The notes beneath the pieces are model-generated. The model was given only the letters and a program-made list of their open reading frames with translations, had not been told where the DNA came from and searched no databases. The translations under genes were made by a program, and so were the position numbers. Source: Alloscardovia omnicolens DSM 21503 (GTDB lineage: Bacteria > Actinomycetota > Actinomycetes > Actinomycetales > Bifidobacteriaceae). Taken from it: a stretch of DNA of 54,642 nucleotides. Below, in pieces: positions 3,054 to 32,157 of the stretch. The stretch spans positions 1-54,642 of the forward strand of contig NZ_ATVB01000012.1 in assembly GCF_000420505.1 (NCBI RefSeq), read 5' to 3'. Each line of letters begins with the position of its first letter. Position 1 is the stretch's first letter.

Positions 3054-3150
3054 TGATATTCTTCTTTCTTCATTTTATGAAGTGTTCATAGAGGAGTCAT
3101 ACACTGGTATAGTTATTTTATTGATTCTAGCGCACACTATGGGAGTATTT

Positions 3151-5055
3151 ATGTTATTACCGCAGACTGACGGTGTGAATCGTTTGGGAATTTTCTTTTT
3201 TTACGATGGACAAGGTGTGGTAGATGATTATGTATCTACATTACTCGCGGGTTTTCAGCCATTTTTCGCGGACCTTACTGTGGTAGTTAACGGCAAGCTC
3301 AACGACGAAGGTAAGGCTAAACTTGAAAAGTTTTCCCACAAGATTATTGTGCGTGAAAATAAAGGCTTAGACGTATGGGCTTATAAAACAGCACTTGATA
3401 GTTACGGCTGGGATAAGCTAGCGGATTTTGACGAAATTGTTTTATTTAACGCCACAATTATGGGTCCAGTTTATCCCTTTGCTGAAATGTTTAACGCTAT
3501 GGGGCAGAAAGACTTAGACTTCTGGGGTATTACAAAATTCCATAAAGTAGATGGAGATCCTTTCGGATACAGTCCTTTTGGCTATTTGCCAGAGCATATT
3601 CAGTCACATTTCCATGCATATAGGAAATCTTTGCACACATCGGAGGCATTTAAGAATTACTGGGATAACTTGCCAGAAATTAAAGACTACACACAATCAG
3701 TAGGAATGCACGAATCATTATTTACTAAGCGCTTTGCTGACCTTGGTTTTACATGGGATGTATATGTAGATACCTCAGATATGGAAGGCTTCTCTTATGG
3801 ACCTGTGACTTTTGCAGCTAAAGAACTCATTGAAAAAAAGCGTATGCCTATTTTCAAGCGTCGTTCTTTCTTCCATCCGTATTCCGATAGTATGACGCAG
3901 TCTGCTGGCACAGCAGCCTTGGAACTATTCGAGTATTTGCGTGATTACACTAATTTTGATACCGATCTCATTTGGGAAAATGCACTTCGTAGCATGAATA
4001 TGGCTGATATTCACAAGAATTTGCACTTGGATTTTGTGCTTCCAGATCAGCTAGCCGTGTCTTTGCCTGAGAATAAAAAATATGCTTTGGTCATGCATAT
4101 ATACTACCCAGATTTAGTAGATCAAACCTTACACTATGCTTATGCAATGCCAGAAGGATCAGACCTCATTTTAACGGTGGGATCCCAAGAGCTCATCGAT
4201 TTACTTACTGATAAGACGAAAGATATGCCGTATAACGTAGATATTCGTCGTATTGAAAATCGTGGTCGAGATGTCTCTGCTTTCCTAGTAGGAGCTGGAA
4301 AAGATTTAATAGCATACGATTATGTAGCTTTCATGCATGATAAGAAAGTAACGCAACTGACTCCCGGCACTAAGGGTGATGGTTTCCGTATTAAATGCTT
4401 TGAAAATATGTTAGCGTCAAAAGCATACGTATCACAGGTGATCCATTTATTCGAGTCTAATCCGCGCCTCGGTATGGCTATGCCTACGGGACCAAATCAT
4501 GCCGAGTATTTCCCAGGCTTTACCTTTAACTGGGGGCCGAATTTTGAAGGCACAAAGAAATTTATGGAAGACACACTCTCCATGAAAGTGCCATTAGATG
4601 AAGGTAAAGAAGTTGTTGCTCCGTTAGGTACAATGTTCTGGTTTAGACCTGAAGCGCTACATGGTTTGCTCGACCGTGATTGGAATTACGAGGATTTCCC
4701 TGCAGAACCTAATGGCATTGATGGCACTTTATTACATTTTATTGAACGTGCATATGGTTATGTACCTCAAGCTAACGGTTTTTTCACAGCGTATATCTTC
4801 TCCCAACGATTCGCGCGTGTAGAGATAACCAATCTGGAGTACGAAGTACGCGAATTGACAAAAGCAATTTCTAGCCCATGGATTCGTCCTGATTTGTATC
4901 AAACAACGCAAGCAATTTATGGGGGAAAAAGTTTCCGCGGCCATCTACGTACTTTGGTGGTGCTTAATCTTAAGCGAATTGCTAAGGCAATTCCAGGTGT
5001 ACGGGGCATTGCTCGACGCTTGTATAATCAGCGTAAACGACGCCAAGCGAAATAA
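3151..5055 (+). CDS. RgpF-like rhamnan synthesis glycosyltransferase
   Basis: A protein of about 634 residues of the rhamnan synthesis F (RgpF) family, which extends or decorates rhamnose-containing cell-wall polysaccharide in the cytoplasm using dTDP-rhamnose. Family signs are the N-terminal RLGIFFFYDGQG, the NKGLDVWAYK segment, the related NRGRDVSAFLVG in the second half, and DKKVTQL. The frame opens at 3034, but ATG at 3151 is preferred: it has GGGAG five bases upstream and gives the family's usual short N-terminus. ATG 3139 is the alternative. The acyltransferase gene follows after 15 bases, and the rml and exporter genes nearby supply precursor and export. The C-terminus is very basic. 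Confidence 0.82.
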   Translation: MLLPQTDGVNRLGIFFFYDGQGVVDDYVSTLLAGFQPFFADLTVVVNGKLNDEGKAKLEKFSHKIIVRENKGLDVWAYKTALDSYGWDKLADFDEIVLFNATIMGPVYPFAEMFNAMGQKDLDFWGITKFHKVDGDPFGYSPFGYLPEHIQSHFHAYRKSLHTSEAFKNYWDNLPEIKDYTQSVGMHESLFTKRFADLGFTWDVYVDTSDMEGFSYGPVTFAAKELIEKKRMPIFKRRSFFHPYSDSMTQSAGTAALELFEYLRDYTNFDTDLIWENALRSMNMADIHKNLHLDFVLPDQLAVSLPENKKYALVMHIYYPDLVDQTLHYAYAMPEGSDLILTVGSQELIDLLTDKTKDMPYNVDIRRIENRGRDVSAFLVGAGKDLIAYDYVAFMHDKKVTQLTPGTKGDGFRIKCFENMLASKAYVSQVIHLFESNPRLGMAMPTGPNHAEYFPGFTFNWGPNFEGTKKFMEDTLSMKVPLDEGKEVVAPLGTMFWFRPEALHGLLDRDWNYEDFPAEPNGIDGTLLHFIERAYGYVPQANGFFTAYIFSQRFARVEITNLEYEVRELTKAISSPWIRPDLYQTTQAIYGGKSFRGHLRTLVVLNLKRIAKAIPGVRGIARRLYNQRKRRQAK

Positions 5056-5070: not shown

Positions 5071-6123
5071 GTGAGCCAAACAGTGCAATCACGCCGACCA
5101 CGGTTATTTTACCTAGATGCTGTGCGCGCTTTTGCAGCTATATTGATTGTTATTACGCATTTTAATAATCCTTTTTTGGTAACTCGTCCAGTTTTTGCAA
5201 ACTCGCCATTTGGAATTTATATTGGAGGATTAGGCGTTTCCCTATTTCTGATTATTTCCGGTGCTGCACTCATGTACACGCAAGGAGATAAGGAAAAGCT
5301 TAATCTGAGAACTTTTTACTCTAAAAGAGCATTAACGATTTACCCTATGTTCTGGATTGCTTTTCTAGTGGCGAACCTATTCCATTTGTGGCGTAGCGGA
5401 TGGCAATTTGGGCAAACCCCATGGTGGAGAATAATTTTCTCAGTTTTTGCGGTGGATGGTTATGTTGCTAATATGCATGTGTCTACTTTCTACACTCTAG
5501 GTGAGTGGTTCTTAGGTTTTATTCTTATTTTTTACGCGATCTTCCCGCTACTTCGAGTAGGAGTGAAAAAATATCCTGTACCAACTGCAGTTATTGTAGG
5601 TATTCTTTATGTCGTGACTATTCTGAGCAGTTTTACTGTTCTGCAATTACCTCAAGATTTACTCTTGACTGTGCGTCTTCCTGAGATTATTTTTGGTATG
5701 TATTTTGTGCGTTACATAAAGCACGTATCACATGCTGTGGGTGTTGGTTCTATGATCTTCTTGATATTGCAACAGTGGAAAGAGTTCTTGTCTGGGCCAT
5801 TAGCAGTTACCTTTGTAGGAATTGCATTCTTCTTAGCACTTGTATGGCTCTGCCAGCTTATTGGACAACCATCGAAGGTTATTGAATATCCAGTCAACTG
5901 GGTATCCAAATTCTCCTATGCGATTTTCCTAACGCATCATGTAATTATTGTGGATGTATTCGCATTGTTCTCCGACTATATGCACTGGTCTCAATTACAC
6001 ATATACGGTTTATTCCTGCTTGATTACGTGATTATTGCTATAGCATCCGTTGTTTTGTTCTACGTAGAAAAGTTTATTGTACGAGGCGGAACAGCAATAG
6101 GGAGGGTTCTCACTAAGAGTTGA
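5071..6123 (+). CDS. Acyltransferase-3 family membrane protein (polysaccharide O-acetylation)
   Basis: About 350 residues with roughly ten membrane segments and the acyltransferase 3 (OafA/NodX-like) opening: FYLDAVRAFAAILIVITHF with the conserved Arg and His, then GVSLFLIISGAAL and SKRALTIYP. Such proteins use cytoplasmic acyl-CoA to acetylate sugars of surface polysaccharides. GTG at 5071 is chosen as start because GAGGAGA sits six bases before it; the open frame begins 15 bases earlier at a TTG with no such site. It follows the RgpF-like gene almost directly, so it probably modifies the same rhamnan polymer. A long palindrome ends the transcription unit. Confidence 0.82.
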   Translation: MSQTVQSRRPRLFYLDAVRAFAAILIVITHFNNPFLVTRPVFANSPFGIYIGGLGVSLFLIISGAALMYTQGDKEKLNLRTFYSKRALTIYPMFWIAFLVANLFHLWRSGWQFGQTPWWRIIFSVFAVDGYVANMHVSTFYTLGEWFLGFILIFYAIFPLLRVGVKKYPVPTAVIVGILYVVTILSSFTVLQLPQDLLLTVRLPEIIFGMYFVRYIKHVSHAVGVGSMIFLILQQWKEFLSGPLAVTFVGIAFFLALVWLCQLIGQPSKVIEYPVNWVSKFSYAIFLTHHVIIVDVFALFSDYMHWSQLHIYGLFLLDYVIIAIASVVLFYVEKFIVRGGTAIGRVLTKS

Positions 6124-6139
6124 CCATAGAAAATACAAA

Positions 6140-6177
6140 TTGAGGCTCAGTAATCCATATGGATTACTGAGCCTCAA
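6140..6177. terminator. Bidirectional terminator palindrome
   Basis: A perfect 38-bp palindrome (19 bp per arm, centre CCATATGG) lies between the converging acyltransferase and epimerase genes. It would form a stable stem on either strand, with short A/T stretches outside the arms. Confidence 0.75.
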
Positions 6178-6199
6178 TACAAAGAAAAAGAGTTACGCT

Positions 6200-7033
6200 T
6201 TATGCCCCAAGAATGTCATGAATTTTAGTGGCATCTCCCCACACGCCTGGAGAATCATAAGGGCGATCTGGGAAAGCACCATAGTCGAGAATAATACTGA
6301 GATTATTATCGTGAATATACTGTTCTACGCGGTCAGCCAAACTCATTGGCTGACCAGTGCAACAATTAATAACGCCATTAATCTTATTTTGACCTACTGT
6401 TGCAGCGATTTGACGCGCTAGCTCATCTACATCAATAAAATCATATTTATTCTTACCAGTAGTGAAAGGGAACTTGTCTTTTCCCTCGTGAGCAGCCTGA
6501 TATAGTTTGGAGAAAATGGAATTACCATGGACATCATCTCCAACAATATAGTAAGCGCGAATCCACTGGAAAGTGGCATCGTAACGTTCAGCTAGACGTT
6601 TCGTAGCTTCGCGTAGAGCATTTTTGGCAATACCGTACATGGAAGCGGGGGCGCATGGTGTATTTTCATCGATGGCGCCCTCCCAGTAGCCGACTTCGTG
6701 CATCGAGCCCATTACTGCAATCTGCTTCAAACCTGCATTCAGCAGAGTTTCAATAAATGAATAGTGGCTGGAAAGATCTGCTAAATGAGCGTCAGAGTCA
6801 TGCTTAAAGCCATCACGCCATGCCATATGAAGGCACACATCTGGAGACCCTAACTTTTCAAAAATGTTATCCTGCGATTCAAAAAGATTAAACTGAATCT
6901 TTGTTGCCCTGTCGTCAATTCCTTCGGTGCGAATATCTGCTGCAACAACATCATGTCCTGCATCCAGAAGTGCAGTTACTACATGACGTCCAATGTATCC
7001 GCCTGCTCCTGTAACCAAAATTTTCTTTGTCAT
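6200..7033 (-). CDS. NAD-dependent sugar epimerase/dehydratase family protein
   Basis: A 277-residue extended short-chain dehydrogenase. It has the Rossmann nucleotide loop GAGGYIG at residues 8-14, an acidic residue at the end of the second strand (VVAADIRT), and the catalytic Y-x-x-x-K as YGIAK after an MGSMHEVGY strand carrying the Ser. It is shorter than RmlB or GalE (about 330 residues), which fits reductase or epimerase members acting on nucleotide-linked deoxysugars. Its place inside a rhamnan cluster suggests it makes or modifies a further nucleotide sugar, but the substrate cannot be read from sequence. It is divergent from the exporter operon. Confidence 0.75.
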   Translation of the reverse strand: MTKKILVTGAGGYIGRHVVTALLDAGHDVVAADIRTEGIDDRATKIQFNLFESQDNIFEKLGSPDVCLHMAWRDGFKHDSDAHLADLSSHYSFIETLLNAGLKQIAVMGSMHEVGYWEGAIDENTPCAPASMYGIAKNALREATKRLAERYDATFQWIRAYYIVGDDVHGNSIFSKLYQAAHEGKDKFPFTTGKNKYDFIDVDELARQIAATVGQNKINGVINCCTGQPMSLADRVEQYIHDNNLSIILDYGAFPDRPYDSPGVWGDATKIHDILGA

Positions 7034-7125
7034 AATTTCCTAGTCTAGCAGTGGTATATGTACCTTGAGCTAAACTATATGGAGTAAAGTTGCGTTTTCA
7101 CGCAAAATCTACAGAAAGGTTCCCC

Positions 7126-7989
7126 GTGGCAGGTACTTCTGAAATTGTTTCACAACCGGGTAGGAGCCGGGGCATTTTCGATGTTTCGCGCTATCGTTAT
7201 CTACTTGATTTACTTGTCCAGAAAGAAGTGCGGGTACGTTACCGCGGATCATGGCTGGGCATGGTGTGGACGTATGTGAAGCCTCTTACGCAGTTCATTG
7301 TTTTTTATGTTGCCATGGGAATCTTCTTAGGTATCGGGCGTGGAGGCGGTATACAAAATTACCCCGTCTATCTTTTTGCAGGCATTATTGTCACAAATTT
7401 CTTTACAGAAGCTTTTATGAGTGGCACGATGAGTGTTGTGTCTAATGCGGGGCTGATTAAGAAAATATATATGCCTCGAGAGCTTTTTCCTCTAGCGTCC
7501 TTGCGCGTTTCTTTAGTGCATTTCTTTCCTCAGTGGTTGGTTCTCGTTGGGGGTTCTATTCTTCTGGGATGGAAAGCAGACTTAGCGGGTCTTGTAGTGG
7601 CCTTAGTTGCTTTTATATCTTTAACTATGTTTGCTTTTGGTTTGGGTCTCTTCTTTGGCTCCGTTAATGTTTTCTTCCGAGACGCCCAAAATGTTACTGA
7701 TTTAGTCGCTATGGTTGCAATGTGGTTAGCTCCTAGTTTCTATACGTGGCATCAAGTGGCAAGTCAAGTTCCAGGGTGGGCGTTCCAGATATATATGGCA
7801 AATCCTATTGCTATTGCTGTTGAGGCATTCCATCGTGGTTTCTGGTGGGGGGCAACAGACGGAAGCTTTACTTTTGCGCATGGTTGGACAGTGAGTTTAA
7901 TTGCCAGTCTAGTTATTTCTATGATTGCGCTCATTATTGGTGAAATAACATTCCGTAAGCTTGAAGGCAATTTTGCCCAGGAAATGTAG
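7126..7989 (+). CDS. ABC-2 type polysaccharide exporter, permease subunit (Wzm/RgpC-like)
   Basis: About 287 residues with six membrane helices and the ABC-2 polysaccharide permease signature near the N-terminus: LLVQKEVRVRYRGSWLGMVWTYVKPL, where the VRYRGSxLG segment is the amphipathic entry helix. With the ATPase encoded next it forms the transporter moving lipid-linked polysaccharide from the inner to the outer face of the membrane. GTG 7126 is preferred because AGAAAGG lies six bases upstream. TTG 7090, with a GGAG five bases upstream, is possible and would add 12 residues. The stop is followed directly by the ATPase gene. Confidence 0.85.
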   Translation: MAGTSEIVSQPGRSRGIFDVSRYRYLLDLLVQKEVRVRYRGSWLGMVWTYVKPLTQFIVFYVAMGIFLGIGRGGGIQNYPVYLFAGIIVTNFFTEAFMSGTMSVVSNAGLIKKIYMPRELFPLASLRVSLVHFFPQWLVLVGGSILLGWKADLAGLVVALVAFISLTMFAFGLGLFFGSVNVFFRDAQNVTDLVAMVAMWLAPSFYTWHQVASQVPGWAFQIYMANPIAIAVEAFHRGFWWGATDGSFTFAHGWTVSLIASLVISMIALIIGEITFRKLEGNFAQEM

Positions 7990-7998
7990 GTGATAGTA

Positions 7999-8754
7999 GT
8001 GGCAGATAATGTACTTCCTGATGATGTATCTGTTCGTGTATCCGATGTATCTAAACGCTTCCACTTTCGAGTGAATCGTTCAATTAAAGAAGCGATTGTT
8101 AAGGCTTTTACGCCAAAATCGAAGCGTCGTCCTAACGAGACTTTTACTGCTTTAGATCATGTTAATTTTGATATTAAACGTGGTGAAACCGTTGGCTTGA
8201 TTGGTGTGAATGGCTCTGGAAAATCCACTCTCCTTAAATTAATGTCGGGTGTTATGCAACCTGATGATGGTGAGGTTTTGGTGCGTGGCACTATTGCAGG
8301 TTTGATTGAAGTGGGTGCAGGTTTTTCGCCAGATTTAACAGGTCGCGAAAATGTTTACCTCAATGGTGCGATTTTAGGAATGTCTAAAGAAGAAATCGAC
8401 GCCAAATATGATGACATTGTCGCGTTTAGCGAGATTGAACCTTTTATGGATACAGAGGTTAAGTTTTATTCCTCAGGTATGTTTTTGCGCTTAGCTTTTG
8501 CTGTTGCTGTACATTCTGATCCTGATGTGTTCTTAATTGATGAAATTTTAGCTGTGGGGGATGAAGCTTTCCAGCATAAGTGCATTATGCGATTAAAGGA
8601 GCAGCAAAAGCAAGGTCAAACCATGGTGTTGGTTTCTCATAGCGAAGATCAGATTAAGGCGCTTGCTGATCGATGCATTGTGATTTCTAAATCGCATCAG
8701 ATTTTTGATGGTAAACCTGATGAAGCTTTTGAAGTAATGCGCGCGCATCTATAA
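7999..8754 (+). CDS. ABC polysaccharide exporter, ATP-binding subunit (Wzt/RgpD-like)
   Basis: About 251 residues containing one ABC ATPase domain: Walker A GVNGSGKST near residue 70, GAGFSPDLTGREN as in teichoic-acid and O-antigen exporters, signature YSSGMFLRL, Walker B PDVFLIDE, D-loop AVGD, and the switch His in LVSHS. It powers the permease encoded just upstream. There is no long C-terminal sugar-recognition domain, so it resembles the short RgpD/TagH-core form rather than long Wzt proteins that read a terminal cap. GTG 7999 has AGGTGAT at suitable distance; GTG 7990, directly abutting the previous stop, is the alternative. Confidence 0.9.
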   Translation: MADNVLPDDVSVRVSDVSKRFHFRVNRSIKEAIVKAFTPKSKRRPNETFTALDHVNFDIKRGETVGLIGVNGSGKSTLLKLMSGVMQPDDGEVLVRGTIAGLIEVGAGFSPDLTGRENVYLNGAILGMSKEEIDAKYDDIVAFSEIEPFMDTEVKFYSSGMFLRLAFAVAVHSDPDVFLIDEILAVGDEAFQHKCIMRLKEQQKQGQTMVLVSHSEDQIKALADRCIVISKSHQIFDGKPDEAFEVMRAHL

Positions 8755-22753: not shown

Positions 22754-22769
22754 ACCACATAGATGTGGT
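22754..22769. promoter_or_regulatory. Candidate LacI-type operator
   Basis: ACCACAT-AG-ATGTGGT is a perfect 7-bp inverted repeat with a two-base centre, about 35 bases upstream of the binding-protein start and just after the LacI regulator gene. Confidence 0.45.
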
Positions 22770-22803
22770 GAGAGTTAAGAAGGACATCGTCGAAGGAGAC
22801 GAC

Positions 22804-24108
22804 ATGAAAACGCTATCCAAACTTGTAGCTGCAGGCGTAGCTGTTGCTGCTCTCTTCTCTGTTGCTGGCTGCGGCTCGCAAAGCACTCAGCAGGAGAAAG
22901 ATCCTAAAACGCTCAAGGTCTGGCATTATGAGGAATCAAGTGGTGCTCAGGGTAAGGCTTGGGATAAAGCTATCGAAATTTTTGAGAAGAAGTACGGTGT
23001 AAAGGTTGAGTTCGAGAAGAAGTCTTTCGAACAGATTCGTCAGAATGCTTCGCAAATTCTCAATTCCGATCAGGTTCCAGACGTTATGGAATACAACAAG
23101 GGCAATGCAACAGCTGGTTTGCTTGCAAGTCAGGGATTGCTTACTGATTTGGGCGATTACGTAAAGGAATACGGCTGGGATAAGAAGATTTCCGGCAGCC
23201 TGGCAGCCACCGGAAAATACGATGACAAGGGCATTATGGGCTCTGGTAACTGGTACGGCATCACCAATTACGGTGAAGATGTGGTGATGTACTACAACCA
23301 GGACATGTTCAACAAGTACGGCATCCAAATTCCAAAGACTTATGACGAACTGGAAGCTGCAATGCAAAAGTTCGTAGATAATGGCGTAACTCCACTGTCC
23401 GAAGGTGTAGCAGAATATCCATTGCAGCACCTGTGGTGGCAGCTGGCTCTGAGTAAGGCAGATAACAAGTTTATCGATGCCTACGAAATGTATAAGGGCG
23501 ATGTCGATTGGAGTGACGAAGAGCTCACCTATGCTACCCAAACTATTGCTGATTGGGTAAAGAAAGGCTACATTTCTAAGGACTCCACTGGTGTGAAGGC
23601 AGAAGATGCAGGTCAGGCCTTTATGAATGGTACCTACCCGATGTTCTTCTCGGGAACCTGGTGGTTTGGTCGCTTCCAGACTGAAATTCCAGACACGAAC
23701 TGGACCTTCTCTACCTTCCCGGACAGTAAGAAGGTTGTGGGCTCGTCCGGCAACATTTGGGTTGTTCCAGAACGCTCCACACGCAAGGATTTGGCTGCTA
23801 AGTTTATCGACATTACTCTTAGCACAGAAGTGCAAAACCTTATGGGCAACGCAGGTGGTTTGCCAATTGCTGCAGATCCAGATGCTATTACCGATGAAAA
23901 GTCTAAGGAACTCATCGAATCCTTTAACACTGTTCTTAAAGATGATGGTTTGGGATTCTACCCAGACTGGCCAACATCCACTTTCTACGATGAGCTTAAT
24001 GCATCTCTCCAAGAGCTGGTTAATGGCACATCTGATGTAAAGAAGACGCTGGAACAGATGAAGTCTAATTATGACAAGGGTGTTGCAGACGCTGGCGTTA
24101 AAGAATAA
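22804..24108 (+). CDS. Sugar ABC transporter substrate-binding lipoprotein
   Basis: About 434 residues of the extracellular solute-binding protein family 1. The N-terminus is a lipoprotein signal: basic MKTLSK, a hydrophobic stretch, and the lipobox VAGC, where Cys would be lipid-modified. It is followed by TLKVWHYEESSG and aromatic-rich ligand-binding segments (WYGITNYGEDVVMYYNQDMF, HLWWQ, FFSGTWWFGRF). ATG 22804 has GAAGGAG at ideal spacing. The protein captures an oligosaccharide for the two permeases; the operon's alpha-xylosidase points to an alpha-xyloside such as isoprimeverose. No ATPase is encoded here, so a shared MsmK/MalK-type ATPase elsewhere is probably used. Confidence 0.9.
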   Translation: MKTLSKLVAAGVAVAALFSVAGCGSQSTQQEKDPKTLKVWHYEESSGAQGKAWDKAIEIFEKKYGVKVEFEKKSFEQIRQNASQILNSDQVPDVMEYNKGNATAGLLASQGLLTDLGDYVKEYGWDKKISGSLAATGKYDDKGIMGSGNWYGITNYGEDVVMYYNQDMFNKYGIQIPKTYDELEAAMQKFVDNGVTPLSEGVAEYPLQHLWWQLALSKADNKFIDAYEMYKGDVDWSDEELTYATQTIADWVKKGYISKDSTGVKAEDAGQAFMNGTYPMFFSGTWWFGRFQTEIPDTNWTFSTFPDSKKVVGSSGNIWVVPERSTRKDLAAKFIDITLSTEVQNLMGNAGGLPIAADPDAITDEKSKELIESFNTVLKDDGLGFYPDWPTSTFYDELNASLQELVNGTSDVKKTLEQMKSNYDKGVADAGVKE

Positions 24109-24138
24109 AAAGACACCTTCACAAAATCCAATAACTAT

Positions 24139-24188
24139 GCGTGCGGGGAAGCCGTTTTCTCCCCGGCAAGACCCCGCGCGCTCTTTTT
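24139..24188 (+). terminator. Intergenic attenuator/terminator inside sugar operon
   Basis: A two-part hairpin: outer arms GCGTGCGGGG (24139-24148) and CCCCGCGCGC (24172-24181) pair fully with one G-U, and an inner GCCG/CGGC extends the stem. TCTTTTT follows directly. It sits between the binding-protein gene and the first permease, so partial termination would give more binding protein than permease. Confidence 0.8.
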
Positions 24189-24250
24189 CGGCAACCAACA
24201 GCACCAGCAGCACGCGCGTGCAATCTCGCGCACAATCAGTGGAGTACACA

Positions 24251-25207
24251 ATGAGTACATCAAAGAAATCACATAAATCAGGAACGCGCACAGCTGAAGC
24301 CTCGCGTATCCCGGGCAGTCCATCCAACAGGTTCTGGCTCTACCTTATTCCGGGCTTTATTATGTTGCTGTGGATTATCGTTATCCCAGCCATCTGGAAT
24401 CTCTATCTGAGCTTTACCACATACCGTGGCATTAAACCGCCGGTATGGGCGGGGCTTAAAAACTGGCAGAAACTCATGACTGATGCCACGTTCTGGGCCT
24501 CGTTTAGAAACTCTATTTGGATGATTATCGCTATGGTAATTATTCCTATTTTGATTGGCTTGGTTCTGTCGGCACTTATGTTCGATGTTGTGCAAAAGAA
24601 GTTCGGTGCGAAAGCAGCCTCCACTTTCCGAGCAATCTACTACTTCCCTCAGCTTCTGCCGATTTCTGTGGCAGCGTTGGTGATGGGATGGATTTTCCGT
24701 CCAGAAAACGGTGCACTCAACGCGGTTCTTAAGGTAATTGGTTTGGGAGCTCTGCAGCATGACTGGTTAGGAAAGCCAGATACAGCACTCATCTTCCTTA
24801 TGCTTATTATGATTTGGATTCAAATTGGTTACCCGCTCATTATCTTTATGTCTGGCCTGCAGCGCGTCGATCCAGAACTGTATGAAGCAGCCAGCTTAGA
24901 TGGCGCAAACTGGTGGCAACGCTTTACCGCCATTACTCTGCCGTCCATTCGCCCAGAAATTTTCGTGGTTGCTCTTACCTGCACCATTGCAGCACTTAAG
25001 GTATTCGGGCCAGTCTACATGCTTACTCGAGGCGGTCCAGGTACCTCCACTATCGTTCCGTCCTACTATTCCTACACACAGTTCTTCCAATCGCAACAAG
25101 TTGGTTACGGTGCAACAATTGCAACCGCACTCACCATTGTGGTTGTTATCGTATCCGTAATTTTCACCACCCTTCAGGAGAAGGTTGCAAAGGAAGATGA
25201 GGCATAA
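24251..25207 (+). CDS. Sugar ABC transporter permease (MalF/UgpA type)
   Basis: About 318 residues with six membrane helices after a charged N-terminal tail. The EAA motif EAASLDGANWWQRFTAITLPSIRP, which contacts the ATPase, is intact near the C-terminus. It pairs with the next gene product to form the channel of the importer. ATG 24251 is chosen because GGAG lies six bases upstream; the open frame reaches back to 24071 inside the binding-protein gene, but that part runs through the attenuator hairpin and lacks family character. Confidence 0.9.
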   Translation: MSTSKKSHKSGTRTAEASRIPGSPSNRFWLYLIPGFIMLLWIIVIPAIWNLYLSFTTYRGIKPPVWAGLKNWQKLMTDATFWASFRNSIWMIIAMVIIPILIGLVLSALMFDVVQKKFGAKAASTFRAIYYFPQLLPISVAALVMGWIFRPENGALNAVLKVIGLGALQHDWLGKPDTALIFLMLIMIWIQIGYPLIIFMSGLQRVDPELYEAASLDGANWWQRFTAITLPSIRPEIFVVALTCTIAALKVFGPVYMLTRGGPGTSTIVPSYYSYTQFFQSQQVGYGATIATALTIVVVIVSVIFTTLQEKVAKEDEA

Positions 25208-25208
25208 A

Positions 25209-26078
25209 ATGGCTACCTCAACACGTATATCAACATGTATTCCTCGCGCTCGCAAAATTCGCACCGGCGGAGATTGGCTTATTCTTGCCTTCCTTATTGT
25301 GGGTGGATTGGTTATGCTCTTCCCATTTATTGTGTTGCTGCTCAATGCGTTTAAAACAACAGCGCAATACAATAGCTCTGGGCCATTAAGCATTCCGACC
25401 GAGCTCCAATTCGATGGCCTTATGAAGTTCTGGAACCGCGTGAATTATCCAGAAAAGCTCTGGAATAGCGTATGGACTTCCGGTCTGGTGGCAGTGCTGG
25501 CTGTTATTTTGTCGATGTTCAACGCTTTCGCCTTAGGAATCGGCCGTGTTAAGGGGCGTCGCTGGATTATTCTGCTCATTATGTTGGCGAATATGCTTCC
25601 ACAAGAAGCAATGCTCTATCCGCTCTACATTATGTTCAAGGAAATTGGCCTGTACAACTCACAGTGGGCAGTGGTTATTATCTTCACCGTTATTCAAAGC
25701 GCATTTGGAACTTACTTGCTCTCTAGCGTGTATGGCACATTCCCTTCAGCAATTCTGGAAGCAGCTACCATCGATGGTGCAAACAGGTGGACTATCTTTA
25801 CCAAGATTGTGTACCCAATTTCTAAGCCAACACTGTCGGTTATGCTCGTCTTCTTCTTCATCTGGACCTGGAATGAGTACATGATTCCAATGGCATTCTT
25901 GATCGACAACAATACGCAAACAATTCCAATTGCAGTGGCATCGCTGTCGGGCGACCGCCTGATGGATGTTACTACTATCGCCGCCGCCTCGCTTATTAGC
26001 ATTGTGCCAACCTTGGTGTTCTACCTTATCTTCCAGCGCACACTGGCTCGAGGTATTACCACCGGCGCGGTCAAGTAA
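25209..26078 (+). CDS. Sugar ABC transporter permease (MalG/UgpE type)
   Basis: About 289 residues, six predicted membrane helices, with the EAA loop LEAATIDGANRWTIFTKIVYPISKP. Together with the preceding permease it forms the heterodimeric membrane channel. ATG 25209 starts one base after the previous stop, with GATGAGG inside the upstream gene as ribosome site, indicating coupled translation. The frame is open 24 bases further upstream. Length and topology are normal for the family. Confidence 0.9.
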   Translation: MATSTRISTCIPRARKIRTGGDWLILAFLIVGGLVMLFPFIVLLLNAFKTTAQYNSSGPLSIPTELQFDGLMKFWNRVNYPEKLWNSVWTSGLVAVLAVILSMFNAFALGIGRVKGRRWIILLIMLANMLPQEAMLYPLYIMFKEIGLYNSQWAVVIIFTVIQSAFGTYLLSSVYGTFPSAILEAATIDGANRWTIFTKIVYPISKPTLSVMLVFFFIWTWNEYMIPMAFLIDNNTQTIPIAVASLSGDRLMDVTTIAAASLISIVPTLVFYLIFQRTLARGITTGAVK

Positions 26079-26119
26079 TACAATCAAACCAACAAAAACG
26101 AAACGGAGAAGGATAAACA

Positions 26120-28537
26120 ATGAAGTTTACGAACGGCTACTGGCTCCTGCGAGACGGAGTAAGCGCTATCTATGCGCGCGAAGCGTATGAGCTGCATCCG
26201 GATACAGAGCGTAAAGAAGTAAATATCGTCGCGACATCCATGAAAGTCAACGATCGTGCGAACACGCTCAACCTGCCAATTTTCGACGTAACCCTCAGCT
26301 CCCCAGCAGAAGGCGTTATCCGCGTGCGATCCGAGCATTGGTCAGGAGCTACGCAGTATCCAGGCTTCCCGCTCAACGAGGAAGATGTGCACAACAATCC
26401 ACGCGTGTCGGTAGAGGCTCAGGGCAACGGCGATGGTGAGGCAGGCGAGGACGGAGCGAGCGTTACGCTCACCTCGGGCGAGCTGTCTGCCCGCGTAGTC
26501 AAGGGTGCTCCGTGGAACTTGAGTTTTGAGGCGCGTGGCGAGGAGCTCACCAGTTCGGCGGGTAAGTCTCTGGCTCATTTCGCGCTGGCTGAGGGAGCTG
26601 CTGTGTCGGCTCAGCCAGCGGGCGAGTTTGGCGTGTCGCTCGACGGAACGGCGCGCGATGAGTCTGAGGTTTTTAGCTCTATCCAGCTGCATCTGGGCGT
26701 GGGCGAGCAGGTGTATGGCTTCGGCGAGCGCTTCGGCACGTATATTAAGAACGGCCAGAGCATCGATATTTGGAACGAGGACGGCGGCGCCGCTTCCGAG
26801 CAGGGCTACAAGGATATTCCGTTCTATATGACCTCACGTGGCTATGGCGTGCTCGTGAACAATCGCGGTCACGTTTCGTATGAGGTGGGTAGCGAAAATA
26901 CTGAGGCTGTGCAGTTCTCGGTTCCGGGAGAAGCGCTTGATTTCTGCATTATTTACGGTCCGACACCAAAAGAAATTTTGGAGCGCTACACGGCGCTGAC
27001 CGGCCGCCCAACCCGCGTTCCGACCTGGAGTTACGGTTTGTGGCTCACCACCTCTTTTACCACCAAGTACGACGAAAAGACCGTAAACAGTTTTGTTGAT
27101 GGTATGGCTGAGCGCAATATTCCGCTAAGCGCTTTTCATTACGACTGCTATTGGATGCGTGAATTCCAGTGGACTGATTTCGAGTTCGATGAGCGTTTCT
27201 TCGGCACGATTGACCAGGTGGAGAAGAGCTTGCGCAGTCTGCACGGAGACAAGGGATTGCATGTGTGCGTATGGCTTAACCCGTATCTGGGTCAGCGCGG
27301 TTCGGCGTTTAAGGAAGCTTTAGAGCGCGGATATCTCGTGAAGAAGCCAAATGGTGAGGTCTGGCAGACTGATTTTTGGCAAGCAGGCATGGGATTGGTT
27401 GATTTTACGAATCCGGATGCGCGCGCGTGGTATAAGAGTAAAGTTAAGGCTCTGCTCGCTCATGGCGTAGACGCGATTAAGACTGATTTTGGTGAGCGTA
27501 TTCCTCGAGACGTTGTGTGGGCGGATGGTTCTCCTAAGCTGTCGATGCATAACTGGTATACGCAACTGTATAATCAGACGGTTTTCGAGGGACTCGAAGA
27601 AACCTATGGCAAGGGTAAGGCTTGCTTGTATGCGCGTTCTGCCACGGTGGGCGGTCAAATGCAGCCAGTGCATTGGGGTGGTGACTGCGAATCTACCTTT
27701 AACGGCATGGCTCAAAGCTTGCGTGCAGGATTGTCGCTCACATCGTCGGGCTTCGGCTTCTGGAGTCACGATATTGGTGGCTTCGAAGGTGCTTTCCCAG
27801 ACCCAGCGGTGTACAAGCGTTGGATTGCCTTTGGTATGCTCGGCTCCCACTCGCGTTTGCATGGTTCGACTGTGTATCGCGTGCCATGGTTGTTCGACGA
27901 AGAAGATGAGAAGAACGGCGTAATCAATGCACCTGGTCAGAGCGCTGTCGACGTGCTGCGTCAGTTTACCTTGCTCAAGCTGGAACTGATGCCGTACCTG
28001 TTCGAATTGGGATTGCAACCAGAAGCGCATGGAACGCCAGTGATGCGCTCGATGTTCTTGGAATTCCCAGAAGATCCAACAGCGCGTGTGCTGGATCGCC
28101 AGTACATGTTCGGCCCATCCCTGCTGGTCGCGCCAGTATTTAGCTACAGTGGAGATGTGGAATATTATCTGCCAGCGGGCACGTGGACGAACTGGTTTAC
28201 CGGCGAAAAAGCGGAGTCTGAGCATGGCGTGTGGCGCAAGGAAAACCACGCGTTCGATACAGTACCACTGTGGGTGTGTGATGGCAGTATTATTCCAACG
28301 CATCCAGGCGCAACCTCGCCTGAATATGAGTATGGTAAGGATGCTGTTTTGGCTGTATTTGGCGAAGCGCAGGTGCGTGTAAGTGAAGAAGACGGCAGCT
28401 CGGTTGTGTTTTCGTCTCGTGTTCTCGAAGATGGTCGCACAGAAGTGACCAGCTCGGACGGTCGTGACTTCCGTGCTCGCTTGGGTGTGGACGGCGAGCT
28501 CGTAGCCTCAACGCACGGTGTTGCAGTGCTCGAATAA
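26120..28537 (+). CDS. GH31 alpha-xylosidase (YicI-like)
   Basis: An 805-residue glycoside hydrolase family 31 enzyme. The N-terminal FTNGYWLL and the catalytic segment DAIKTDFGERIPRDVVW match alpha-xylosidases such as E. coli YicI rather than alpha-glucosidases. The nucleophile should be Asp 456 and the acid/base Asp 522 in HWGGDCE; the 66-residue spacing equals that of YicI. No signal peptide is present, so it acts in the cytoplasm on sugars brought in by the ABC importer encoded just upstream. Likely substrates are isoprimeverose or other alpha-xylosides from xyloglucan. It starts with GGAGAAGG upstream and ends the operon before a terminator. The codon use is GC-richer than in the polysaccharide region. 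Confidence 0.92.
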   Translation: MKFTNGYWLLRDGVSAIYAREAYELHPDTERKEVNIVATSMKVNDRANTLNLPIFDVTLSSPAEGVIRVRSEHWSGATQYPGFPLNEEDVHNNPRVSVEAQGNGDGEAGEDGASVTLTSGELSARVVKGAPWNLSFEARGEELTSSAGKSLAHFALAEGAAVSAQPAGEFGVSLDGTARDESEVFSSIQLHLGVGEQVYGFGERFGTYIKNGQSIDIWNEDGGAASEQGYKDIPFYMTSRGYGVLVNNRGHVSYEVGSENTEAVQFSVPGEALDFCIIYGPTPKEILERYTALTGRPTRVPTWSYGLWLTTSFTTKYDEKTVNSFVDGMAERNIPLSAFHYDCYWMREFQWTDFEFDERFFGTIDQVEKSLRSLHGDKGLHVCVWLNPYLGQRGSAFKEALERGYLVKKPNGEVWQTDFWQAGMGLVDFTNPDARAWYKSKVKALLAHGVDAIKTDFGERIPRDVVWADGSPKLSMHNWYTQLYNQTVFEGLEETYGKGKACLYARSATVGGQMQPVHWGGDCESTFNGMAQSLRAGLSLTSSGFGFWSHDIGGFEGAFPDPAVYKRWIAFGMLGSHSRLHGSTVYRVPWLFDEEDEKNGVINAPGQSAVDVLRQFTLLKLELMPYLFELGLQPEAHGTPVMRSMFLEFPEDPTARVLDRQYMFGPSLLVAPVFSYSGDVEYYLPAGTWTNWFTGEKAESEHGVWRKENHAFDTVPLWVCDGSIIPTHPGATSPEYEYGKDAVLAVFGEAQVRVSEEDGSSVVFSSRVLEDGRTEVTSSDGRDFRARLGVDGELVASTHGVAVLE

Positions 28538-28562
28538 TGGACAGCCTTGCTTCAATAGTTTG

Positions 28563-28603
28563 AAGCCGCTACGTATACCGATGAGTATGCGTAGCGGCTT
28601 TAT
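28563..28603 (+). terminator. Intrinsic terminator after alpha-xylosidase
   Basis: Arms AAGCCGCTACG (28563-28573) and CGTAGCGGCTT (28590-28600) pair perfectly; GTATAC/GTATGC bases extend the stem. The T tract is weak. Confidence 0.7.
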
Positions 28604-28702: not shown

Positions 28703-29728
28703 ATGAGCATGACTACGCCTTCGCCAGCATTTTCTCGTTCCTTAGGAGCATTACAAGGCCTCGCGCTGGGGGATGCCTTAGGTATGCCCACGCAAAGCAT
28801 GAGCGCTGAGTGGATTAAGCAAGCGTACGGCACTATCGATGGTTTGCGCGATGCCATTGCCGACCAGCCTATTGCTCCGAACATGCCTGCCGGCTCGGTC
28901 ACAGACGATACCGAACAAGCGCTTATCGTAGCGCGCTTAATTATTAACGGCAAAGGGCATATTGATGCGCTCGCTTTAGCTCACGAACTGCTCGATTGGG
29001 AAGACGATATGCGGGCGCGAGGCTCGCATGATCTGCTTGGACCTTCTACCAAACTTGCTCTCGAACACATTCGAAACGGTGCAGATGGTCGCACTACCGG
29101 GCGCACAGGAACAACCAACGGTGCGGCCATGCGCGTTACTCCTGTAGGTATAGCGAATCCGTCGAGTGATGTGCGCCGTTTAGCTGAACGCGTGCATGAA
29201 TCCTGCAAAGTAACGCATAACACGGTGCATGGTTTTACTTCCGCGGCGCTTGTTGCAGCCGCGGTGAGTTTCGGTATTGACGGTGCGAATACCCGCGATG
29301 CTCTTGAAGAGGCAGTGCAGTGCATTACGCGCATGCGCGACTTTATCGCCGATTTCGACTGTGCCTGGAGCGCAAAAGCAGACGTTGTAGCTCGCACAGA
29401 AGTGGCGCTCAATGCCGCCAGCCATGCTACCGATACAGAGTTTGAACACTTCCTGCACAATGTGTGTGGCACTTCTGTTGAATCCAACGAATCGATTCCA
29501 GCAGCTTTCGCGCTGGCCTGGCGATTCGCTGACGAACCATTTGTCGCACTCTGCGAAGCTGTATCGCTCGGAGGAGATACCGACACTATTGCAGCCATGT
29601 GCGGCGCCATTCTCGGCGCAAGCGGAGCGGCGAACGCATTCCCTGAGCACGTCATCGCCACCATCACTCAGGTTTCGCGCCTGAACTTAGAGCCCCTTGC
29701 TCAACAGTTATGCGCTCTACGCGGCTAA
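28703..29728 (+). CDS. ADP-ribosylglycohydrolase (DraG/ARH) family protein
   Basis: A 341-residue all-helical hydrolase of the ADP-ribosylglycohydrolase family. The three dinuclear-metal motifs are intact: GLALGDALGMPTQ near residues 15-27, SVTDDTEQAL near 72-81, and LGGDTDTIAAMCG near the C-terminus. Classical members remove ADP-ribose from proteins, but no ADP-ribosyltransferase is nearby. Instead the gene leads an apparent operon with a nucleobase permease and a PfkB sugar kinase, so an N-glycosidase acting on a nucleoside-like small molecule is a reasonable inference. The start has AGAAAG five bases upstream; ATG 28709 is an alternative. The family is sure, the substrate is not. Confidence 0.88.
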   Translation: MSMTTPSPAFSRSLGALQGLALGDALGMPTQSMSAEWIKQAYGTIDGLRDAIADQPIAPNMPAGSVTDDTEQALIVARLIINGKGHIDALALAHELLDWEDDMRARGSHDLLGPSTKLALEHIRNGADGRTTGRTGTTNGAAMRVTPVGIANPSSDVRRLAERVHESCKVTHNTVHGFTSAALVAAAVSFGIDGANTRDALEEAVQCITRMRDFIADFDCAWSAKADVVARTEVALNAASHATDTEFEHFLHNVCGTSVESNESIPAAFALAWRFADEPFVALCEAVSLGGDTDTIAAMCGAILGASGAANAFPEHVIATITQVSRLNLEPLAQQLCALRG

Positions 29729-29782
29729 ACGCGCGGTGAGCATGTTGAGCGAGACAAAAAGAGAAAAGGAGAAAGAAAAATT

Positions 29783-31225
29783 ATGGCTGAAAATTCGTCA
29801 AAGCAATCGTACATGCTCACCAAAGTTGAGCAACGCGGTTTGGAACCAGTTCCCGACGATCAGCGCAACGGTACGCCCGGTCAGCTGTTTTGGGTGTGGT
29901 TCGCCGCCAATATTTCCATTTTGGGCATCCCACTGGGAGCAACGCTCATTTCGTTGGGCTTGAACGTCTGGCAGTCCGTGCTCGTTACGGCTATCGGATC
30001 GTTCGGATCCTTCGCCCTCGTCGGCATTATTTCTGTTGCCGGTCGCCGCGGAGGAGCGCCATCGCTCGGTTTATCGCGCGCCATTTTCGGTGTGCGCGGA
30101 AACATCGGTCCGGCAGTTGTTGCCTTGTGTAGCCGTTTAGGCTGGGAAACCGTTAATACGATTACCGGCGCTTTCGCACTGCTCTCTCTGTGGGCAATCA
30201 TCTTTAAGACGCCGGTTACCGCGAAAGAAGCGCCAGGCTTAGTCCTCGCTTTTATCCTCATTTTCGTGGTCCTCACGATTATTGTGGCCGTGGCCGGTCA
30301 CGGTTTTATCCTCAAAATCCAAAAATGGGCAACCTGGATTTTCGGTGCTCTCACGCTACTGGTCGCTGGCTATTTGGCTGCAACCGTTGATTGGTCGCTC
30401 GTTCTGTCCGGCAAGCCTGGCTCACTGAGCGCTGTACTGATTGGCATCGGCACGATTGCTGCGGGAACAGGTATTGGCTGGGTGAACTCGGGCGCGGATA
30501 TGGCACGTTACCAGAAGAAAGACGTAAAAACCAGCTCGCTCATCTGGTCTGCCGCTGCCGGCGCAGGCATTCCGCTCGTTCTCGTTATTACCGTTGGCGC
30601 GATTTTAACCGCCGGTGGCTCCGGTATCGCTTCTGCTGCCGACCCAGTGATTGCTGTGCGCGATCAGCTTCCAGCTTGGGTTTCTGTGCCATACTTGATT
30701 TCCGCTTTCGCAGGTCTGCTCATGTGCAACAGTCAGTCCGTGTATTCCGCAGGTTTAGCCACGCTGGCTACCGGCATTCGCATTCCACGCACGGTGGCAG
30801 TGGTCGTCGACGTCGTTGTGACCACGGCAGGCGCGCTCTACTTTACGCTCGGTTTCGACGGATTCTATGGCCCGTTCATCACCTTCATTTCGCTACTTTC
30901 CGTTCCGCTCGCCGCGTGGACAGGTATTTTCCTTGTCGATATGATTGACCGCCGCACCTATGATGGCGATTCCCTCGTCGATCTTTCCCCTCGTTCGCGC
31001 TACTGGTACGCCGCCGGCTTTAACGTGTCTGGCTGCGTCAGCTGGGTTGTTGCGTTTATTGTCGGCTACCTGTTCGTTACCGCACGCGTTTCGGCCGATG
31101 AAGTCTGGTTCTCCGGTCCGCTCGCCGGCACGTTTATCGGCAAGAACGGTTTGGCGTGGCTCGTCACCATGCTTTTGGCCGCCGGCATTTACGCCGCGTG
31201 GGGCGGCGCTCGCTCGAAGGAGTAG
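29783..31225 (+). CDS. NCS1-family nucleobase permease (CodB-like)
   Basis: A 480-residue protein with about twelve membrane helices. The N-terminal RNGTPGQLFWVWFAANISILGIPLGA is typical of the cytosine/purine/allantoin (NCS1) transporters, which import nucleobases or related compounds with a cation. GRRGGAPSLGLSRAIFGVRGN also fits the family. It has AAAGGAGAAAG before its ATG. It lies 54 bases after the ADP-ribosylglycohydrolase gene and two bases before the PfkB kinase, implying one operon that imports and breaks down a base-containing compound. The exact substrate cannot be told. Confidence 0.87.
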   Translation: MAENSSKQSYMLTKVEQRGLEPVPDDQRNGTPGQLFWVWFAANISILGIPLGATLISLGLNVWQSVLVTAIGSFGSFALVGIISVAGRRGGAPSLGLSRAIFGVRGNIGPAVVALCSRLGWETVNTITGAFALLSLWAIIFKTPVTAKEAPGLVLAFILIFVVLTIIVAVAGHGFILKIQKWATWIFGALTLLVAGYLAATVDWSLVLSGKPGSLSAVLIGIGTIAAGTGIGWVNSGADMARYQKKDVKTSSLIWSAAAGAGIPLVLVITVGAILTAGGSGIASAADPVIAVRDQLPAWVSVPYLISAFAGLLMCNSQSVYSAGLATLATGIRIPRTVAVVVDVVVTTAGALYFTLGFDGFYGPFITFISLLSVPLAAWTGIFLVDMIDRRTYDGDSLVDLSPRSRYWYAAGFNVSGCVSWVVAFIVGYLFVTARVSADEVWFSGPLAGTFIGKNGLAWLVTMLLAAGIYAAWGGARSKE

Positions 31226-31227
31226 CT

Positions 31228-32157
31228 ATGGCGCGCGTACTGCATTTTGGTCAAGTTATTATTGACTTTACTTTGCTCATTGACGCTCTACCCGAGTCGG
31301 GCGGCGATGTCTTCGCTTCTGACTCAGGCGTTCACGCGGGCGGCGGCTATAACGTGCTGTACGCGGCCAAACAGATGGGTGCGGATGCTGTGTATGTCGG
31401 CGCTGTAGGAGAAGGACCAATGGCTCAGCTGGCTCTCAAGGCGCTCGATGAGATTGGCATTGTGTTCTGCGGTGCGCGCGTTCCTAGCATGGATACTGGC
31501 ATCTGTGTTGCTATGACCGATTCCAGTGGTGAACGCACTTTTGTGTCTACCCGCGGAGCTGAAACGCACGTTCCTCATGACTTCTACGAAAACCTCGAAG
31601 TAGCCGATGACGATGTTGTGTATCTCTCGGGCTACTCTTTCGCTCACACGGATAACCGTATTGCTCTGGAACGCTTTGCTCGCGCTCATGCAGGGCGTAG
31701 CGGTTTTACGCTTTTCGATGTCGGTCCTATGGTTGGCTCTATCGAACAGAGCAGTCTCGACGCGGTAGCCAATCTCAACCCGTTATGGTCGCTTAACGAA
31801 CGTGAAAGCGCGATCTTGTGCGGGCGCCTCGCAGTCAGCGCTTCGGACGACCTTGCCGAGCGTTGCACAAACTTGGCTCAAGCGCTATCTGCGCGTGTTT
31901 TGCTGCGGGCAGGAGAGCAGGGCGCTTGGCTGAGTGAAGGCGCGGCCTATATTCCAACGCCCACGGTCAGCGTGGTGGATACGAACGGAGCAGGAGACGC
32001 ACATGCGGGTGTTCTATGCGCAGCCATGCTTGAGGGAATGAGCCTCGAGGAAGCGCTCAAACTGGCCAATTGTGCGGGCGCATTGTCTACGCAAAAGTTC
32101 GGTCCGTCTACCTGTCCGAGCCGAGCGGAACTCGAGGAAGCGTATCGTGCGCTCTAA
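31228..32157 (+). CDS. PfkB-family sugar/nucleoside kinase
   Basis: About 309 residues of the ribokinase/PfkB family. It has the substrate-side HAGGGYNVLYAAKQMGADAVYVG and the ATP/catalytic signature VVDTNGAGDAHAGVL with the catalytic Asp. The start ATG 31228 has GAAGGAG just upstream, overlapping the end of the permease gene; the open frame reaching back to 31156 overlaps the permease. Family members phosphorylate ribose, nucleosides, pseudouridine and other sugars. Co-transcription with a probable N-glycosidase and a base transporter suggests it phosphorylates either the released sugar or the imported nucleoside. Confidence 0.88.
   Translation: MARVLHFGQVIIDFTLLIDALPESGGDVFASDSGVHAGGGYNVLYAAKQMGADAVYVGAVGEGPMAQLALKALDEIGIVFCGARVPSMDTGICVAMTDSSGERTFVSTRGAETHVPHDFYENLEVADDDVVYLSGYSFAHTDNRIALERFARAHAGRSGFTLFDVGPMVGSIEQSSLDAVANLNPLWSLNERESAILCGRLAVSASDDLAERCTNLAQALSARVLLRAGEQGAWLSEGAAYIPTPTVSVVDTNGAGDAHAGVLCAAMLEGMSLEEALKLANCAGALSTQKFGPSTCPSRAELEEAYRAL

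Follow-up and report, generated by a model that had tools for sequence, protein, structure and literature searches.

A candidate riboside salvage operon with an ADP-ribosylglycohydrolase-fold enzyme in Alloscardovia omnicolens

The PsuK/PsuG and RihC/RbsK pathways each combine a PfkB-family kinase with an enzyme that cleaves the bond between ribose and a base. A second kind of gene set, in which a PfkB kinase accompanies an ADP-ribosylglycohydrolase, is in print as annotation only (Escherichia coli yegTUV and islands of the staphylococcal cassette chromosome, SCC), without an assigned function. The functions of yegTUV are called unknown in PMC10819704, which, like the other papers cited here by PMC number, is quoted from the portions available to us. 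Here we analysed a stretch of 54,642 nucleotides of Alloscardovia omnicolens DSM 21503 (contig NZ_ATVB01000012.1, positions 1 to 54,642), hereafter the window, in which genes for an ADP-ribosylglycohydrolase-family hydrolase, an NCS1-family permease and a PfkB-family kinase follow each other head to tail on the + strand. The open reading frames (ORFs) and the Pfam matches agree with the positions assigned to these genes in a first-pass annotation (Table 1).

Our best explanation, to which we give a probability of about 0.5, is that the three genes serve as an operon for riboside salvage in which the kinase acts first and the base is most likely nicotinamide or nicotinate. The observations that bear on it are the conservation of the operon, the covariation of a Gln/Glu position of the hydrolase with the kinase, the exchange of transporters, and NAD (nicotinamide adenine dinucleotide) or nicotinate genes next to the unit in some relatives. 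In the proposed scheme, the permease would import an unphosphorylated riboside, the kinase would phosphorylate its 5-hydroxyl (riboside + ATP -> 5-phospho-riboside), and the Mg2+-dependent enzyme of ADP-ribosylglycohydrolase fold would cut the ribose-base bond to give the base and ribose-5-phosphate. Nicotinamide or nicotinate released in this way could enter NAD via PncA and PncB in the host. The parts of this scheme differ in strength: salvage of a small riboside is very probable and the kinase step probably precedes the hydrolase step, while a pyridine base is slightly favoured for the family and is a tentative assignment, just short of even odds, for the window's own copy.

Conservation of the hydrolase-kinase unit and exchange of its transporter

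Among relatives of the hydrolase in named genomes, 258 were found and the best 80 were kept for locus counts. All 80 kept loci, which belong to two phyla, have a PfkB gene downstream of the hydrolase gene on the same strand, adjacent or one gene on. The gene order was hydrolase-NCS1-kinase in 59 loci, hydrolase-kinase in 14 and hydrolase-kinase-NCS1 in 7, and the genera include Bifidobacterium, Gardnerella, Actinomyces, Micromonospora, Pseudomonas, Caballeronia and Halomonas. Of the 77 loci with enough room, 51 have a GntR/UTRA gene as their immediate upstream neighbour; the 26 loci without it are from Bifidobacterium, Gardnerella and Actinomyces, with one Rhodococcus locus, and no GntR match was found in the window.

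We compared these loci with a contrast set of 22 other hydrolase loci (E-value 1e-30) from 198 genomes of the phylum. A PfkB relative was present in one of them (L133) and none was seen in 21, in a search with a panel of seven kinases at an E-value of 1e-6, which diverged kinases could escape and in which some stretches (L138, L146, L148, L168) were short. The contrast locus L132 (5225-11839) has a GntR match, a hydrolase of the YegU type (Glu at the position described below), a PnrA-like lipoprotein gene and ATP-binding cassette (ABC) transporter genes; no kinase was found in its stretch, and therefore not every member of the clade has a kinase gene close by. The association of hydrolase and kinase is nevertheless far beyond chance. 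The first-pass annotation had called for this co-occurrence check, which the 80 loci bear out, and had counted relatives in unrelated contexts as evidence against its proposal; we observed none among the relatives of the window type (Gln at that position) that were read, all of which have the kinase where the stretch is long enough.

The divergence of the hydrolases tracks that of the kinases (r = 0.93; 60 loci drawn from 119), which common descent by itself would likewise produce. A yegU query from Pantoea matches 5372 of 5426 complete E. coli genomes, and the hydrolase-kinase cassette is located on lactobacillus plasmids as well. Split matches in L093 (hydrolase 6001-6983, PfkB 7052-7973), L021 (NCS1, 7137-8541) and L002 (NCS1, 2851-4003) suggest operon decay or sequencing errors in some Bifidobacteriaceae. 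On a Thermoanaerobacterium plasmid (L130, 5989-6942), the genes after an ADP-ribosylglycohydrolase gene encode a hypothetical protein and a Uma2-family endonuclease, with no kinase or permease.

The window permease belongs to the NCS1 family (PF02133, cut-off 23.5 bits); it scored 87.4 bits with TIGR00800, under the cut-off of 353.1, and a sequence search of the PDB gave no match at an E-value of 0.001. Other units have other transporters in its place. A NupG-type nucleoside symporter replaces NCS1 in the E. coli, Salmonella, Pantoea and Vibrio units (Pantoea: Nuc_H_symport PF03825, 514.7 bits; YegT: TIGR00889 nucleoside permease). Alphaproteobacterial units (Mesorhizobium, Rhizobium, Paracoccus and six further genomes) have an SBP_bac_8/6 ABC transporter, and in one actinobacterium a PnrA-like Bmp ABC transporter lies beside the hydrolase. 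We read the unit as a probable salvage pathway of old origin, whose transporter can be exchanged (NCS1, NupG-type and two ABC types).

A further variant bears on the order of the two steps. In Enterococcus raffinosus and Listeria, a gene of the phosphotransferase system (PTS) lies directly 5' of the hydrolase gene, and no PfkB relative was found in the surrounding stretches of 14.9 kb and 10.9 kb, respectively. The two hydrolases are 67% identical, of the Glu type, and sisters within the kinase-linked clade (support 0.996). They stand in a row of PRD regulator, PTS permease and ADP-ribosylglycohydrolase (L108, 4086-7927; L204, 2132-5975), and the hydrolase occupies the slot where a phospho-glycosidase is expected. 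The PTS phosphorylates its cargo, and therefore the hydrolase should meet a phosphorylated glycoside in these bacteria. That the PTS stands in for permease and kinase suggests that phosphorylation would precede hydrolysis in the three-gene units too.

The opposite order, in which an unphosphorylated nucleoside is hydrolysed and the kinase then phosphorylates free ribose as in RihC/RbsK, would agree with the kinase's nearest relatives: its closest named model is the ribokinase model TIGR02152, its closest solved chains are ribokinases, and the host has a non-homologous parallel in an IunH gene beside a ribokinase-like gene. However, the TIGR02152 score of 104.3 bits is far under the cut-off of 299.65, so that the protein does not qualify as an RbsK equivalog; compared with ribokinase, the loop of Lys43 is shorter by one residue and the region of Glu143 is different (we assume the ribokinase roles of these two residues). 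With the pseudouridine kinase model it scored 19.8 bits, against a cut-off of 540. The known ARH substrates carry a phosphate on the 5-position of the ribose that is cleaved, and the PTS variants deliver a phosphorylated substrate with no kinase gene nearby. Hydrolysis first is therefore rather unlikely. The first-pass annotation had proposed import, N-glycosidic cleavage and sugar phosphorylation, outside the IunH, PNP and MTA families; these activities fit our findings, whereas the order it gave is reversed here, as the PTS variants favour.

The hydrolase active site and its covariation with the kinase

Besides the PF03747 domain, which was the sole match at an E-value of 0.001 (no IU_nuc_hydro domain was found), the AlphaFold model of the hydrolase (mean pLDDT, the per-residue confidence score, 95) places it in the ARH/DraG fold. 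The best structural match was MJ1187 (1t5j; Z 38.9), followed by ARH3 (36.4) and DraG (35.5), and ARH1 was matched too. The ARH family pattern is E..[T/S]DDT..DTDT (PMC6309922). The window hydrolase retains TDDT and DTDT, while the Glu, to judge by the alignment with DraG and MJ1187, is replaced by Gln31. The earlier statement that the protein keeps all metal motifs must thus be restricted to the two Asp-rich ones.

We observed that this replacement divides the family. Gln occupies position 31 wherever a distinct window-type sequence has a letter at this place (95 of 95), and all distinct YegU-type sequences carry Glu (18 of 18); of 27 hydrolases outside both types, 26 have Glu and one has Asp. 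The kinase differs accordingly: every distinct pair with a Gln hydrolase (90 of 90) shows a sugar-site loop of five residues, mostly GGGFN or GGGYN, and every distinct pair with a Glu hydrolase (17 of 17) shows one of six residues (GG[CS]AxN). These counts come after collapsing 10 of 152 rows at 99% identity (uncollapsed: 100/100 Gln and 22/22 Glu rows, with 96 and 21 pairs); L133, with Ala and a long loop, and L093, which could not be scored, are not included in them, and the Glu row L132 has no kinase in its stretch. In the tree, Gln-type and Glu-type hydrolases form two branches (supports 0.954 and 0.881), within which L093, without a letter there, and L019 fall. The window hydrolase and YegU belong to one clade that holds both types (support 0.994-0.996), and the root of the kinase-linked set has no support (0.101). 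A hydrolase and a kinase that differ together may share a substrate, but the covariation of the Gln/Glu position with the loop is essentially one split on the tree, not 107 events. In the kinase motif GAGDAH we take the His to be unusual.

The fold and the metal motifs would also suit a function on ADP-ribose, i.e. protein de-ADP-ribosylation, or on ADP-glucose, as proposed for yegTUV via GgaR. Against the former, the window hydrolase scored 76.8 bits with the curated DraG model TIGR02662 (cut-off 337.05) and 60.5 bits with the curated Tri1 model NF041672 (cut-off 490); Ser134 and Tyr135, which hold the adenosine in ARH3, align with Gly136 and Thr137 (ARH1 binds adenosine differently); and a permease and a kinase fit protein de-ADP-ribosylation poorly. 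Against the latter, we know of no sugar nucleotide uptake by an NCS1 permease. In favour of ADP-glucose, it is reported that GgaR (YegW) senses it and represses yegTUV, that ggaR loss raises glycogen, that yegV deletion is listed as lowering glycogen, and that NupC/NupG import ADP-glucose (PMC10819704). We regard both functions as very improbable.

How Gln31 might serve the proposed reaction can be considered from ARH3. Human ARH3 rapidly cleaves the N-glycosidic bond between nicotinamide and ribose in alpha-NAD+; the nicotinamide would displace Glu41, and the authors deem an initial nucleophilic attack superfluous for this bond (PMC8319183). Because of this, Gln31 would be compatible with a cationic pyridine leaving group, and nothing further is implied.

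Neighbouring NAD and nicotinate genes and the nature of the base

The nicotinate idea was formed on Glu-type loci. In Lactiplantibacillus, NrtR (PF21906, 41.7 bits), PncB (nicotinate phosphoribosyltransferase) and PncA (nicotinamidase-like hydrolase) genes precede hydrolase-NCS1-kinase, and a second Lactiplantibacillus record with these neighbours carries identical protein accessions. In two Pantoea records, the unit adjoins a set with an annotated 2,5-dihydroxypyridine 5,6-dioxygenase, an FAD (flavin adenine dinucleotide) monooxygenase, an alpha/beta hydrolase, an Asp/Glu racemase, an isochorismatase-family protein, an MFS transporter, a MarR regulator and a molybdenum hydroxylase. From this gene set, we take these to be nic (nicotinate-degradation) genes; of the four that were tested, none was confirmed by an NCBIfam equivalog.

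The idea was then tried on window-type loci with the Pantoea proteins as probes, and nic relatives were found at 2 of the 80 kept loci and at 0 of 13 further ones. In Pseudomonas oryzihabitans, hydrolase, NCS1 and kinase are followed, within 11 kb, by relatives of NicT, F, E, D, C, X, a MarR protein (nicR), A and B (60-84% identity). In Halomonas salipaludis, hydrolase and kinase are followed by a NicB relative (56%) and a MarR gene (53%) and, further on, by relatives of NicF, E, D, C, A, B and X (41-79%). Of 33 such genomes, 17 contain NicX, and in two of them it is no more than about 16 kb away from the operon, where 0.084 is expected (Poisson P = 0.003, for a limit of 16 kb chosen after the distances had been seen). 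A second contrast set of 22 loci had no NAD or nicotinate gene, apart from three weak alpha/beta-hydrolase matches of 24-31%. The nicotinate link thus concerns a minority of loci, but it includes both enzyme types and two pathways, and these neighbourhoods suggest a nicotinate or nicotinamide riboside as the substrate.

The same machinery could act on another base, such as a thiazolium, an alpha-ribazole-type or a modified purine or pyrimidine riboside, with the nicotinate neighbours being coincidental or specific to sub-lineages. Consistent with this, 78 of the 80 window-type loci have no nicotinate gene in the stretch read; thiMD adjoins yegTUVW in E. coli, Salmonella and three further genomes; and all 6 Gardnerella-type loci with room downstream of the operon have, at that place, an isochorismatase-fold protein that lacks the PncA metal motif. 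However, every unit beside which thiMD was seen shares at least 65% identity with E. coli yegTUV across the three genes, a pattern that common descent would produce, and nicotinate genes occur in four genera, with both enzyme types and two different pathways. A different base is therefore somewhat unlikely.

That isochorismatase-fold protein (L041, 9823-10380; L022, 9605-10177; L080, 10889-11401) comes after a second NCS1 type in the Gardnerella-type operons and also in an Amycolatopsis metagenome-assembled genome. It was rejected as a nicotinamidase: it lacks the metal motif of the Lactiplantibacillus PncA, which we take to be Asp-His-His, and a separate PncA relative (52%) lies elsewhere in that Gardnerella genome.

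Several points weigh against the proposed pyridine riboside pathway. The Lactiplantibacillus evidence comes from a single locus type, present in two records, and four other lactobacillus records, whose hydrolases are at least 99% alike, have no NAD genes beside the unit (in two of them about 1.1 kb of upstream sequence is available). The Pantoea soli unit has no nic genes in the stretch read. In 31 of the 33 genomes examined for NicX, it was not found at an E-value of 1e-40, was on another contig or was far off, and the limit of 16 kb behind the P value was set with the distances in view. The copies in Bifidobacteriaceae and other actinobacteria have no NAD or nicotinate gene of the panel in the roughly 6 kb read to each side; the same holds for the 6-9 kb around Pseudomonas marginalis and three more Pseudomonadales loci, and the E. 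coli and Salmonella copies adjoin thiMD instead. Kinase-first cleavage of beta-nicotinamide mononucleotide (beta-NMN) would waste an NAD precursor. Finally, the Glu is lost in window-type hydrolases, while the ARH3 variant E41A is severely impaired (PMC8319183).

A beta substrate fits this scheme poorly because hydrolysis after the kinase step would destroy beta-NMN, and by analogy with the ARH family the substrate would be the alpha anomer. The ARH fold is alpha-specific in known members. One could go further and propose a dedicated alpha-pyridine-riboside pathway, in which the ARH fold serves as an alpha-(phospho)ribosyl-nicotinate/-nicotinamide hydrolase. Vitamin B3 and ribose-5-phosphate would be regained from a form, damaged or conjugated, that is no substrate for beta-specific enzymes, with the beta-NMN pool left untouched, and the change from Glu to Gln would mark a branch whose cationic pyridine leaving group needs no acid/base help, the kinase having changed to match. 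We put this forward as a doubtful, speculative extension.

The host genome (1.85 Mb, 98% complete), which belongs to the Bifidobacteriaceae, contains an NAPRTase and one isochorismatase-family ORF whose motifs we take to be nicotinamidase-like; therefore released nicotinamide would have a route to NAD. No match for NadA or PnuC was found in this genome. Three IunH genes lie elsewhere in it, one adjoining a ribokinase-like gene, and therefore the three-gene operon is not the sole nucleosidase route. That gene pair (contig C3, 106063-109941, L171), for a nucleoside hydrolase of the IunH type and a ribokinase-like PfkB protein, is the classical counterpart of the present gene set.

Layout of the locus and comparison with known systems

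The intergenic gaps are 54 bases between hydrolase and permease and 2 bases between permease and kinase, and an AAGGAG-type ribosome site lies upstream of both the permease and the kinase gene. The ORF list offers a longer GTG start for the kinase at 31156; the ATG at 31228 is the likely start. A predicted hairpin sets the three genes apart from the GH31 gene upstream; it was not among the matches of a simple terminator scan and possibly marks the end of the upstream unit. That unit (22765-28537) has likely sugar ABC transporter genes (one permease tested, PF00528) and the GH31 glycosidase gene, and is probably a glycoside utilisation operon distinct from the three-gene set.

Table 1. Features of the three-gene locus (positions in the window)
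Feature	Position	Strand	Details
ADP-ribosylglycohydrolase-family hydrolase gene	28703..29728	+	341 aa; PF03747, 200.8 bits, E 4.8e-59; Gln31 (window) type
NCS1-family permease gene	29783..31225	+	480 aa; PF02133, 180.8 bits, E 5.2e-53; proposed riboside importer
PfkB-family kinase gene	31228..32157	+	309 aa; PF00294, 144.4 bits, E 6.4e-42; proposed riboside or ribose 5-kinase
Gln31 codon of hydrolase	28793..28795	+	catalytic/metal Glu position in ARH/DraG enzymes and YegU
Hydrolase metal motif TDDT, residues 67-70	28901..28912	+	invariant in 31-row alignment
Hydrolase metal motif DTDT, residues 292-295	29576..29587	+	invariant in 31-row alignment
Short sugar-site loop GGGYN of kinase	31339..31353	+	covaries with hydrolase Gln31
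Kinase motif GAGDAH	31987..32004	+	catalytic Asp257 (GAGD) invariant, His259 nearly invariant (18-row alignment)
Hairpin between GH31 gene and hydrolase gene	about 28561..28602		from folding, 18 pairs

We searched the open-licence PMC literature (mostly titles and listings; subscription papers and preprints lie outside it) and found no substrate assigned to the cassette and no link between ADP-ribosylglycohydrolase-PfkB pairs and nicotinamide riboside. The term 'ADP-ribosyl' is absent from the text of the mutant-fitness papers PMC9007349 and PMC6365646. It is absent, too, from the available part of the Bifidobacterium regulon paper PMC4746261, which has RbsR with RihC/RbsK, and the available parts of PMC10434189 and PMC12506659 have nothing on the function of the cassette. 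STM3547/RikA was rejected as a counterpart; it is a ribose kinase, but the neighbours described in the accessible part of PMC13432705 include no ADP-ribosylglycohydrolase. As far as these searches reach, the nicotinate link is new.

The yegTUV genes are without an assigned function although yegU occurs in nearly every E. coli, and the proposed reading gives such gene sets a testable role, while the neighbourhoods narrow the substrate question to a short list. If it is true, nucleoside salvage would gain an enzyme class, a family so far understood as acting in protein de-ADP-ribosylation would have a function on small molecules, and a bacterium like this host, where NadA and PnuC were not found, would have a source of vitamin B3.

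The first-pass annotation had spoken of a possible new pathway, but the gene set itself is not new: it exists as E. coli yegTUV with another transporter and as the staphylococcal SCC trio. In E. coli yegTUVW (ggaR), an ADP-ribosylglycohydrolase gene adjoins a PfkB kinase gene, and their products share 34% and 29% identity, respectively, with those of the window over nearly full length; a transporter is present as well, and YegU shares a clade with the window hydrolase. The E. coli unit differs in having a nucleoside:H+ symporter instead of NCS1, a GntR/UTRA-type regulator, Glu at position 31 of YegU and a longer loop in YegV. The SCC trio of ADP-ribosylglycohydrolase, permease and ribokinase (SERP2218-2216), compared by annotation, has the same families in the same order (PMC3637587, PMC3321955, PMC3900703). 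Human ARH3 is like the window hydrolase in fold (Z about 36) and in TDDT and DTDT, and it cuts the nicotinamide-ribose bond of alpha-NAD+ (PMC8319183); unlike it, ARH3 has the catalytic Glu and ADP-ribosyl substrates, whereas the window enzyme has Gln, no ARH3-type adenosine clamp by alignment, and an operon with a permease and a kinase. The ARG-centred neighbourhoods of a survey of the NAD+-ADPr virus world have the same hydrolase superfamily with Nudix or WYL regulators, but phosphatases occur in a little over 55% of them, they are read as countering viral ADP-ribosylation, and no permease-kinase pair is mentioned in the available part of that survey (PMC9503650). In PsuK/PsuG and RihC/RbsK, in turn, the cleaving enzyme is from a family unrelated to the window hydrolase.

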